From: an uncultured Clostridia bacterium
Lineage (GTDB): Bacteria > Bacillota > Clostridia > Oscillospirales > Oscillospiraceae
Length of the DNA stretch: 64,000 nucleotides
NCBI GenBank assembly: GCA_946061515.1
Contig: CAMGRL010000004.1
Location: 16,505-80,504 of the forward strand
Direction of reading: 5' to 3'
Both the position numbers and the translations under genes were made by a program. The notes under the pieces are model-generated. The model made no database searches. It was not told the DNA's origin and saw nothing but the letters and a program-made list of their open reading frames with translations. This document shows positions 53,888-57,264 of this stretch, piece by piece. Numbering within the stretch: the stretch's first letter is position 1; each line of letters opens with the position of its first letter.

Positions 53888-53961
53888 ACAGTTGATCCGA
53901 CCTGTGGCTGCAATCACAGGTCGGATTTTCATGTTATGTGTTGGGGTTGTCTACAGCCCAA

Positions 53962-54008
53962 GGCTCCCTCTGATGAGGGAGCTGTCAGCGAAGCTGACTG
54001 AGGGAGAG
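53962..54008. repeat. left inverted repeat of the DUF559 cassette
   Basis: 47 bp starting GGCTCCCTCTGATGAGGGAG and ending CTGAGGGAGAG, with internal palindromes. It is repeated in opposite orientation at 54357-54411. The last codons and stop of the DUF559 gene lie inside it. Confidence 0.75.
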
Positions 54009-54353
54009 ACGCCTGACAGTCAGATCAATGTATTCGCATACACCACGAAAATTTCGGTCAATATCCAGATTGCAAACTCTCACTACCGTTAGATTCATGG
54101 ACTCCAGGTCTTTTGTGCGCAGTGCATCTTTTTCGGCCTGCTCTGCTGTATAATGTCCGCCGCCGTCAAGTTCGATGACTAGCCTTGCTCTTGCGCAATA
54201 GAAATCCGCAATGTAATTACCAATTGCTTTTTGCCTTTGAAAGCGCACTGGGTAGGTTCTCAAAAAATCATACCACAGCTTCCGTTCCCATGGGGTCATA
54301 TTCTTTCGGAGTGCCTTTGCAAGAGGGATATTCTCTTTATTATAGTCTTTCAT
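53985..54353 (-). CDS. DUF559 endonuclease-like protein
   Basis: 122 residues, Vsr/PD-(D/E)xK-like family DUF559: N-terminal NMTPWERKLWYDFLR, then PVRFQRQKAIGNYIADFYC, LVIELDGGGHYT (the E-L-D-G-x-x-H catalytic core) and VVRVCNLDIDRN. Activity on DNA is presumed from the fold. ATG 54353 is preceded by GGAGAG supplied by the right repeat, and the final residues SLSQLR and the stop come from the left repeat, so the gene and repeats form one unit. Confidence 0.88.
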   Translation of the reverse strand: MKDYNKENIPLAKALRKNMTPWERKLWYDFLRTYPVRFQRQKAIGNYIADFYCARARLVIELDGGGHYTAEQAEKDALRTKDLESMNLTVVRVCNLDIDRNFRGVCEYIDLTVRRLSLSQLR

Positions 54354-54356
54354 TTT

Positions 54357-54411
54357 CTCTCCCTCCGTCAAAAATCAAAGATTTTTGACACCTCCCTCAT
54401 CAGAGGGAGGC
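54357..54411. repeat. right inverted repeat of the DUF559 cassette
   Basis: 55 bp; on the minus strand it starts GCCTCCCTCTGATGAGGGAG like the left copy and ends GGAGGGAGAG. Its centre differs: a perfect small palindrome, TGTCAAAAATC/GATTTTTGACG. Confidence 0.75.
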
Positions 54412-54498
54412 ATTGGTGCAGTGCGAAATCACACATTATGCCCCCTATCGAACGGCGTACAAAAGTGCGCTCTTATCTGTTCGACTAATCGGAATTTG

Positions 54499-55017
54499 TC
54501 AGCCTTTTTTAAAACGCAAATAAAAACTATTTTGACTACGATTTTGGCAGGCAAGTACAAGCCCGGCTTTCAAGCACAAGTTCGTGATGCTTAGGGTGTT
54601 TTGTGTATCTTTTTTTACTACGCCGTATGTAGTAGAAATATGTTCATTTGGCAAGCTAACCGTAACGTCTACGCAGAACGGTTCAGGATATGCAGATGGA
54701 ATATTGCAATCCCAAATATGAAGCTCTCCACCATTTACCAGTACTCTTGCTGCTTCTGAAATTGCATTTTTTTGATCTTCAGCACTCATAAACATCAGCG
54801 AATAAAATGATGTTACATGATCAAAAGAATTATCGCTAAATTTCAGATGTGTTGCATCCATCAGGATCTTTTCAAATCCCGGTGGCGCTTCATCTAATTC
54901 ATCTTGTCGAATATCTATAGCAACGACCTGGTTTGTATATAGGCGCCCAATTACACCTTCTCCGCCACCTCCAATATCCAGAATTTTGCCATTAAATTCC
55001 TTGTTTAGCGTAATCAT
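54499..55017 (-). CDS. class I SAM-dependent methyltransferase, AT-rich
   Basis: 172 residues. Motif I is KILDIGGGGEGVIGRL, motif II AIDIRQDELDEAP, then DATHLKFSDNSFDHVTSFYSLMFM and AARVLVNGGELHIWD. A methyltransferase type-11 fold; the substrate is unknown. Clearly lower GC than the neighbours and located next to the nuclease cassette, so probably acquired. The ribosome-binding site is weak. Confidence 0.82.
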   Translation of the reverse strand: MITLNKEFNGKILDIGGGGEGVIGRLYTNQVVAIDIRQDELDEAPPGFEKILMDATHLKFSDNSFDHVTSFYSLMFMSAEDQKNAISEAARVLVNGGELHIWDCNIPSAYPEPFCVDVTVSLPNEHISTTYGVVKKDTQNTLSITNLCLKAGLVLACQNRSQNSFYLRFKKG

Positions 55018-55323
55018 CTTGATTCACCATCTTCGTCAAATTCCGCTTCGCAGGTCTGTTTGATTTCATGCTATCATATAACAGAAAAGAATGCAGGAAC
55101 AGCCACAGCAGAGCAAACTGCTGTGGCTGTAACTTCCTTATGAACACCCGCTCTTCACGGGCTTTTTATTTTTAATACTAATCCCGGATAAAAAGCTTTA
55201 TTGGATTTCCGAGCAAAATTTGTGTCAGGCAAGGCGGCTTTCGCAGAGCATAATGGAGATATATGGTCAAGAAAGCCAACGCAGCATGGCGCAAATTTTG
55301 CTGGAAAGCGTTGAATGTTTTTA
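55018..55323. other. intergenic region nadE to methyltransferase
   Basis: 306 bp with no gene. It holds the perfect hairpin at 55099-55130 and most of the MITE copy B (55175-55337). Confidence 0.6.
55099..55130. terminator. strong hairpin, possible nadE terminator
   Basis: Perfect 13-bp stem (55099-55111 with 55118-55130) with a 6-nt loop; only a modest T-run on the minus strand. Confidence 0.5.
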
Positions 55324-55337
55324 TCAGGGATTAGTAT
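55175..55337. repeat. MITE-like palindromic element, copy B
   Basis: 163 bp. Ends ATACTAATCCCGGATAAAAA and, reversed, ATACTAATCCCTGATAAAAA: 19 of 20 match. Shared internal words with copy A (reversed) include GCAAGACAAGGCAG versus TCAGGCAAGGCGG and AACGCAGTATTG versus AACGCAGCATGG. Its right end supplies the last codons and stop of nadE. Confidence 0.75.
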
Positions 55338-57264
55338 AAATTTCGATTTCTTCCAGCTCTTTCATCCATAAAGCGGAACAGGCGTCGGAGGGCATGCGCC
55401 AGTCGCCACGGGGGGAGAGGGTGACGGTGCCCACCTTGGGCCCGTCGGGCAGGCAGGAGCGCTTGAACTGCTGAGCGAAGAACCGGCGGGTAAAGACCCT
55501 CAGCCAGTGGAGGATGGTCTCATCGGAATAGCTGCCCTGGAAGGCGTAGCGGGCCAGGGCGTAGATACGCCTGGGGGAGGAGCCGTTTCGGAGCATGTGG
55601 TACAGGAAAAAGTCGTGCAGCTCATAGGGACCCACAATGTCCTCCGTCTTCTGGGAAATCTTTCCCTCGCTGTCCGCGGGCAGCAGCTCCGGGGACACGG
55701 GGGTATCCAGAATGTCGTCCAGAATGGCCTTGACCTGCGCGTCACAGTGCTTTGACTCATAGGCGATAATATAGCGCACAAGGGTCTTGGGCACGGAGGC
55801 GTTGACTGCGTACATGGACATATGGTCGCCGTTATAGGTGGCCCAGCCCAAGGCCAGCTCCGACAGGTCGCCGGTGCCTACCACAATGCCGTTTTCCCGG
55901 TTGGCGATATCCATCAGTACCTGGGTCCGCTCCCGGGCCTGGCAGTTTTCAAAGGTCACGTCGGTCTTTTCCGGGTCCTGGCCGATATCCGCAAAGTGCT
56001 GCCTGACGGCGGCGGTGATATCCACCTGGCGGAAGCTGACGCCCAGCTCCTCACAGAGCGCCTGGGCGTTGCTGCGGGTCCGCTCCGTGGTGCCGAAGCA
56101 GGGCATGGTGACGGCGAGAATATCTGTCCTTGGCCGCATTAACATATCCATGGCCCGGACCATCACCAGCAGCGCCAGGGTGCTGTCCAGCCCGCCGGAG
56201 ATACCGATGACCGCCTTGGGGCAGTGAATATGCTCCAGGCGCTTTTTTAAGCCGTGGGACTGGATGCTGAGGATGGCCTCCGCCCGCTCGGACAGAACCT
56301 CGCTGTCAGCGGGGACAAAGGGGTGTCTGGGAATCAGTCTGGTGAGCTCCACATCGTGCAGCGGATGGGAGAAAGGAACGCGGCGGCAGCTTTTTCCGCT
56401 TCTGCCGGAAAAGCTGGTGTTGCGGTGGCGCTCGTTTCTCAGCCGGAACAGGTCCGCTTCAGTGGAGATAAAATCGGTCTCCGCTGCAAAGGGCTTTTTC
56501 TCCGCCAGCTTCATGCCGTTTTCAAATATGAAGCTGTGCCCGGAGAACACCATGTCCTGGGTGGACTCGCCGATGCCGGCGTTGGCATAGGCATAGGCGC
56601 AGATGAGCCGGGAGGAGGCGGAGGAGACAAGCAGGCGGCGGTAATCGTCCTTGCCGATCAGCTCGTTGGAGGCGGACAGGTTGGCAATGACGGTGGCCCC
56701 GGAGAGGCAGAGATCGGTGGCCGGGGTCACAGGCGCCCACAGGTCCTCGCAGATCTCAATGCCGATGACCAGCTCTTCCATCTCCTTACAGCAGAAAAGC
56801 AGGTCTGTGCCGAAGGGGACAGTCTTTCCACAGAGGCTGATCTCATTGGGGCCGGAATACTCATTTCCGGAGCTGAACTGCCGCTTTTCGTAAAATTCGC
56901 CGTAGTTGGGAAGGATGCTCTTGGGGACAAGGCCCAGTATTGCTCCATCCTGTACCACGGCGGCACAGTTATAGAGCTTGCCTCCGAGCCGCAGGGGCAG
57001 GCCCAGGGCAGTTACACAGTGCTTGCCCCGGCTGTATTCCCGAAAGGCGTCCAGCGTCTCTCGGGCGGCGGAGAGCAGCAGATCGGAATAGAACAGATCG
57101 CCGCAGGTATAAGCGGTCAGATGCAGCTCCGGCAGCACCAGCAGCGCACTGCCCATGGCCTCCGCCCGGTCAAGGGCGGCCTTTGCCGTAGTGAGATTAA
57201 ATTCCACATCGCCCACCTTCACCTGGGGACAGGCGGCGGCCAGCTTAACAAAACCAAGCTCCAT
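55324..57264 (-). CDS. nadE: glutamine-dependent NAD+ synthetase
   Basis: 646 residues, two domains. N-terminal nitrilase-like glutaminase (1-280): Glu in [14 protein letters not shown], Lys in [17 protein letters not shown] and Cys in [11 protein letters not shown]-terminal NAD synthetase (about 325-640): PP-loop [14 protein letters not shown]. It amidates nicotinic acid adenine dinucleotide to NAD+. Start [15 protein letters not shown] is the usual one. The last residues (YTNP) are encoded by the end of MITE copy B, so the insertion changed the native C-terminus slightly. Confidence 0.96.

Follow-up and report, generated by a model that had tools for sequence, protein, structure and literature searches.

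The window analysed here, a 64,000-nucleotide stretch of DNA from an uncultured member of the Clostridia (assembly G000, 2.22 Mb, 81% complete), contains on its minus strand, at 53962-54411, a 450-bp unit that consists of a gene for a DUF559 nuclease and of the hairpin-forming arms on either side of it. Judged by its copies and by the sequences that surround them, this arm-gene-arm unit is shown to be discrete and repeatedly mobile, with gene-free derivatives. On balance we favour the view that it belongs to a REP-type family of mobile DNA, as a small element whose DUF559 nuclease would act on folded arms, its own and, in trans, those of other segments, because the unit sits in unrelated contexts, a derivative of it occupies at least five sites, hairpin pairing has been kept and the polarity of the arms is fixed. 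The same view is favoured because nuclease clades track the palindrome type and the gene is under purifying selection, and because a unit in Deinococcus is found at two junctions of an hpa operon and a composite at a second locus of the window genome (L015) has near-clean empty sites. By analogy, we read the unit as a counterpart of the REP/RAYT systems in which a Vsr-like PD-(D/E)XK nuclease would replace the HUH transposase; the action of the nuclease on the arms is what we infer from these patterns.

The limits of the unit (arm A, gene, arm B) are given by the ends of homology islands in other Clostridia and by a second copy in the same genome, and they coincide exactly with the coordinates at which a first-pass annotation, made from the letters of the window, had placed a DUF559 ORF between two oppositely oriented repeats. 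Arm A (56 bp; 54356..54411, minus strand) was assigned from its folding, its arm-type signature G..G and its position 5' of the gene. It consists of an outer palindrome, CCTCCCTC-TGAT-GAGGGAGG, and a second hairpin, TCAAAAATC..GATTTTTGA, followed by GGAGGGAGAGA, which carries the ribosome-binding site of the gene. The inner end of the arm thus provides this site (GGAGGGAGAG-AAA-ATG; the start codon occupies 54351-54353), with two bases between the arm end and the ATG. Arm B (46 bp; 53962..54007, plus strand), assigned from its folding, its signature C..T and its position 3' of the gene, has the outer palindrome GCTCCCTC-TGAT-GAGGGAGC and a second hairpin, TCAGC-GAA-GCTGA, followed by GAGGGAGA, and the last codons of the gene (SLSQLR) and its TGA are encoded within it. 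The proposal that one repeat supplies the ribosome-binding site and the other the last codons and the stop was therefore right on both counts. That these are inverted repeats of 47-55 bp holds for their opposite orientation but not for their extent: the arms are 56 and 46 bp long and alike in the outer part only (31 nt, 87% complementary), and because the inner hairpin is not shared we regard them as separate arm types, not as a single repeat that occurs in both directions.

Each arm, taken as a single strand, folds into a pair of hairpins, an outer pyrimidine-rich palindrome (CTCCCTC-N4-GAGGGAG) and the inner hairpin, with stabilities well beyond those of shuffled sequence (z -7.2 for arm A and -4.8 for arm B; none of 200 shuffles equalled either). 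The inner segment varies greatly, with 112 distinct versions among the 141 distinct arms from all loci collected; in these arms 86% of the possible inner-stem pairs are formed, compared with 39% in shuffles, and every counted inner-stem position shows all four Watson-Crick pairs. The two-letter signature, G..G or C..T, discriminates 140 of the 141 arms. Where both arms were found around a gene, the order was A-gene-B at 16 of 24 loci and B-gene-A at none, the remainder being arrays or same-type pairs, and 22 of 23 gene-free short doublets run in the order A-B. Because polarity is conserved and the hairpins covary, these patterns point to recognition of a folded structure whose two ends differ. 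The GTAG/CTAC tag is present in neither arm; CGTC is found inside arm A only, on the other strand and off its end, and not in arm B. Rfam was consulted for a known RNA family corresponding to the arms, and all matches were weak and under the gathering score.

The gene (53985..54353, minus strand; 122 aa from the ATG) is the only one in the unit, which holds no transposase, and its product is a YcjD-like member of PF04480 (DUF559; E=1.3e-26, 93 bits against a cut-off of 20.6). The AlphaFold2 model of the protein (pLDDT 91) has as its nearest PDB structure 3hrl, itself a DUF559 protein, and next among nucleases the homing endonuclease I-Bth0305I (3r3p). D56, E67, D69, H73 and D82 are invariant across 24 sequences (alignment A1, with residues counted from the TTG start), and these acidic residues and the histidine are the ones expected for catalysis. 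Model, structure matches and invariant residues all agree with a Vsr-like PD-(D/E)XK fold, the class to which DUF559 proteins belong in the available text of the papers on YcjD (PMC1189080) and Caulobacter VsrA (PMC12907096). In Caulobacter there are unlinked partners (PMC12907096); the neighbour of the window unit, a small gene at 54499-55017, is of the Methyltransf_11 type and not a C5 DNA methyltransferase, so that no Vsr partner lies nearby. The sister genome G212 lacks this small methyltransferase gene and has different sequence at the syntenic position.

Between the two copies of the nuclease gene in the window genome dN is 0.007 and dS 0.149, and pairs with estimable dS give dN/dS of about 0.04-0.17. 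Because dN between the copies is far below dS, the nuclease is by this codon-level measure under purifying selection and kept working. When mapped onto the phylogeny of 72 proteins, the type of the outer palindrome changes 10 times, compared with 31.3 times in shuffles, none of 200 being as low; near-copies inflate this agreement in part, and the main types nevertheless divide at deep branches. Palindrome type, as read from this tree, follows nuclease clade, an agreement that would also arise by co-inheritance, with no need for recognition.

A pattern search of the window genome found arms at six additional places. One, on contig C12, has the gene and is a second complete 450-bp unit, 97% identical to the first, with 13 differences, none of them in the arms. 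The other places, on contigs C6, C9, C17, C31 and C38, hold five short elements of ~150 bp, that on C9 with a broken B arm. All five align with both ends of the unit, have an identical internal deletion junction and keep the last ~15-18 codons of the gene (e.g. RKAGGVCEDIDPTVRCLSLSQ vs RNFRGVCEYIDLTVRRLSLSQ); because junction, unit ends and gene end are common to all, they look like the offspring of one deletion derivative that was dispersed to several sites. As deletion derivatives with the ends of their parent, the five short copies have one of the features that define MITEs. The search for empty sites that the first-pass annotation had recommended was successful in part: at three short-element sites and at the site of the window unit, the element is missing from syntenic relatives (G212, G274, G004, G219), but none of these joins is base-exact, the intergenic regions of the relatives being too altered. 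An enzyme of the RAYT/IS200 type that might act on the arms was sought in this genome and rejected, the single Y1_Tnp match being weak and its locus having no arm. A separate, MITE-like element of 169 bp lies at 55172-55340 of the window, with 23-bp inverted ends (TTAATACTAATCCC..GATAAAAA) and, in the same genome, four more copies at 94-98% identity plus more diverged ones.

A scan of named genomes yielded 80 loci, chiefly in Clostridia MAGs and in Bifidobacterium biavatii. Homology between the window unit and other units ends at the arm ends, the flanks being unrelated, to within 0-1 base at three loci (L055, L058, L060) and within 5 bases at three others (L059, L064, L069), and these island edges define the element ends 53962 and 54411 independently of the window; no target-site duplication was evident where the islands end at the arms. 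The arms are near-identical between genomes (in several, identity is about 96-98% across 46-56 bp), and the nearest DUF559 proteins in other genomes are about 72-84% identical. With its second copy, its derivatives and homology ending at the arms, the unit of about 450 bp is indeed mobile-looking, as had been proposed from the window, and the impression that its repeat was familiar from gut Firmicutes proved well founded, the family being widespread there. The description of the unit as self-contained fits the arm-bounded unit of other species but not fully the window genome, where it also lies within a larger composite.

Other arrangements of arms and gene were met as well. Genome G136 (L171-L182) has at least nine A-B doublets of ~233-314 bp with a different interior, and its DUF559 gene, which is not enclosed by arms, flanks two A-B doublets (~255 bp). 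In Deinococcus the same DUF559 unit is found in two species, each time at another junction within one hpa operon, and one species has the insertion point of the other intact. In Sphingomonas parapaucimobilis two DUF559 genes (L319:14995-15390 and L313:14821-15357), located in a transhydrogenase operon and next to dnaG, respectively, both adjoin CTCCC..GGGAG palindromes.

Counts across loci agree with a connection between gene and repeat. Inverted repeats (E<1e-3) flank 25 of 68 DUF559 ORFs, compared with 5 of the 137 remaining ORFs that were taken from these loci. A palindrome with a pyrimidine stem was present at a distance of at most 150 bp from 53 of 68 DUF559 ORFs and from 11 of 151 controls (p=4e-26; the palindrome definition was set after some flanks had been inspected, which makes the palindrome p-values descriptive). 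Other palindromes contrast far less (57/68 vs 96/151). Pyrimidine palindromes accompany DUF559 genes on viral contigs too (11 of 16, vs 8 of 68 controls). Distant DUF559-like viral proteins (<30% identity) were near palindromes in 0 of 15 cases, a count that carries no information because their controls were equally at 0 of 83. In a small mixed set drawn from Alpha- and Gammaproteobacteria, Neisseria, Deinococcus, Cyanobacteria and gut phages, with annotated genes as controls, the counts were 11/16 and 18/165 (p=7e-7). YcjD-like DUF559 genes are thus strongly linked to hairpin repeats in Clostridia, and the link in other phyla finds support in a small sample. Among the family's 201 genomes, one arm pattern was present in 24 of the 62 that have DUF559 and in 8 of the 139 that lack it (Fisher p=2e-8), a count that covers this single palindrome type and treats related, non-independent genomes as separate; the 38 DUF559-bearing genomes without the searched pattern and the 8 with arms and no DUF559 count against the reading that we favour. 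Neither of the two outcomes that the first-pass annotation had named as fatal to its proposal was seen: the repeats are not confined to the window, being present at other places both together with the gene and in its absence, and the gene is far from being found without them at the same rate, its link to repeats lying far above that of control genes.

Arms in some genomes without a detected DUF559 gene also suit an account in which the arms are non-autonomous repeats, moved in trans by another transposase or a host enzyme, and the DUF559 protein is a Vsr-like repair or stress passenger that profits from their spread. E. coli offers a similar picture. Its DUF559 member, YcjD, is encoded between sapF and fabI, and in E. 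coli K-12 palindromes that resemble, and that we take to be, Box C lie at this one locus between ycjD (b1289), which is upstream, and fabI. Box C query repeats are present in 5395 of 5426 E. coli genomes, the median number of places in a genome being 19, compared with 3366 genomes that have a ycjD match covering >=80% of the query, and Box C-like repeats occur also in strains without ycjD; the connection of YcjD with Box C is a testable lead, not evidence. Caulobacter VsrA, a characterised DUF559 protein, works in the DNA-damage response and is tied to cytosine methylation as well as to predicted mismatch repair (PMC12907096), which speaks for a passenger and against a mobiliser. A passenger would, however, not account for a unit without any other gene, for the fixed polarity of the arms around the gene, for a palindrome type that tracks the nuclease clade or for an association repeated in unrelated phyla, and we consider such a role unlikely.

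Under the reading that we favour, that of a mobile element whose own nuclease acts on the arms, the DUF559 nuclease would recognise the arms in their folded form, be it in single strands or in cruciforms such as might arise behind a replication fork, and would nick or cut at the arms or at a target hairpin, after which replication or repair would copy the arm-bounded segment into a new site. The enzyme would serve its own unit and, in trans, gene-free arm-bounded segments (REPIN-like doublets and MITEs), much as RAYTs are supposed to act on REPINs. For the further suggestion that the nuclease might protect the unit, we found no evidence. In the genus of the window the unit is in addition nested in a larger composite, one relative of which has landed in a terminator hairpin, and since this composite has ends of its own, another enzyme could be the mover there.

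Outer modules, both on the minus strand, adjoin the arms of the window unit: that next to arm A (54412..54490), which some other DUF559 units share, has a terminal-repeat-like end, AGTCGAACAGATAAGAGCGCAC, and that next to arm B (53888..53961) has a terminator-like hairpin, TCCGACCTGTG..CACAGGTCGGA, and then CAACTGTTTA at its end. Outer modules are common to DUF559 units at L015, L040, L046, L051, L056 and L078, with ends that resemble GTTCGTAAAACAGTTAA and a terminator-like hairpin also present, and may mark where a larger mobile composite ends; those flanking the window unit are similar to the ones of the L015 composite. At L015 (G000:C9, about 19.99-20.86 kb) a second DUF559 type lies within an insertion of ~870 bp that splits the loop region of a terminator hairpin; the hairpin, GCCCTGCCG-GAAA-CGGCAGGGC in G274, is intact in G274 and G212. 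The composite has near-clean empty sites in two sister genomes, and its left half-stem is duplicated imperfectly over ~9-12 bp. As this insertion is the larger composite with its own terminal-repeat-like ends, it is no proof of movement by the arms alone.

The terminator hairpin split by the C9 composite, together with the short element on C17, whose left edge touches a split terminator stem, would be in keeping with homing, in which the nuclease makes breaks between genes where hairpins can form, as at terminators, repair copies the unit in and the arms are landing pads or protection; the identity of the best PDB nuclease match beyond the DUF559 structure, a homing endonuclease, fits as well. 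We hold homing to be improbable all the same: a single near-clean insertion was seen, homing normally requires flank homology or one fixed site whereas the units are at many unrelated sites, and deletion derivatives that lack the nuclease have spread too. Still less credible is that, in the genus of the window, the mover is the larger composite, with GTTCGTAAAACAGTTAA-like ends and some other transposase, and A-DUF559-B its cargo. The shared outer modules of the loci listed above and the near-clean empty sites of L015 would agree with this, but the outer modules are absent from the shared homology at L055, L058, L060 and L064, where it ends at the arms, and the composite end motif is no commoner genome-wide than the same motif reversed, which served as control (5 vs 7). 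An anti-phage or restriction nuclease between ordinary terminators or translation signals is very improbable. PADLOC matches of the protein, though weak and partial (e.g. mREase_II, 1.5e-6), and one large cyanobacterial DUF559 protein inside a BREX locus speak in its favour, but the unit has no further defence gene and tiny units with deletion derivatives are an atypical way for defence systems to spread.

If the unit is a mobile element of the REP type, as we favour, its closest counterparts are the REPtrons (REP/REPIN with RAYT/TnpA-REP), in which one gene likewise lies between inverted short palindromes with central hairpins and gene-free inverted pairs are scattered in the genome, as here. 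The RAYT/REPIN papers link REPs of the GTAG type to HUH enzymes (PMC3116915, PMC3733652, PMC8266576), and CGTC REPs are apparently without an assigned enzyme (PMC3733652). REPtrons encode an HUH tyrosine transposase and have a GTAG end tag, whereas the window unit has a PD-(D/E)XK Vsr-like nuclease, no such tag and two distinct arm types, and, unlike REPtrons, it has multiplied as a whole within its genome; as transposase and tag are absent, we do not class it as a REPtron despite its REPtron-like working. MITEs and their parents (PMC10969869) share with it the short internal-deletion derivatives that have the ends of the parent and outnumber it, but MITE parents carry a DDE transposase where the window unit has DUF559 only, and here no target-site duplication was found at the arm ends and the ends are covarying hairpins. 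To I-Bth0305I, the closest solved nuclease fold apart from 3hrl and a Vsr-like homing endonuclease, the predicted likeness is one of fold, the window nuclease lying outside any intron or intein with hairpin arms on either side. VsrA and YcjD are of the same family, YcjD being a DUF559 protein encoded upstream of Box C-like palindromes; they were studied as repair or predicted nucleases, and the available text of the two papers makes no mention of a repeat association (PMC12907096, PMC1189080). No description of DUF559 joined to inverted repeats was found in the literature searched, in which subscription papers and preprints are thinly covered, so that this absence carries little weight.

The pairings of gene and hairpin in many bacterial phyla suggest that a whole class of repeat DNA is spread with the help of this enzyme. 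Short palindromic repeats rank among the commonest repeats of bacterial genomes, and to our knowledge the large families of CTCCC..GGGAG palindromic repeats have no assigned mobiliser. We put forward, tentatively and with doubt and hope almost in balance, that there is a REP-type class of mobile DNA across several phyla run by a hairpin-reading, Vsr-like DUF559 nuclease, YcjD included, which would explain the CTCCC..GGGAG families and perhaps Box C. If DUF559 proteins do serve pyrimidine-palindrome repeats, an uncharacterised family would gain a role, a large class of repeats would gain its mobiliser, and mobile DNA would gain a new type of enzyme.
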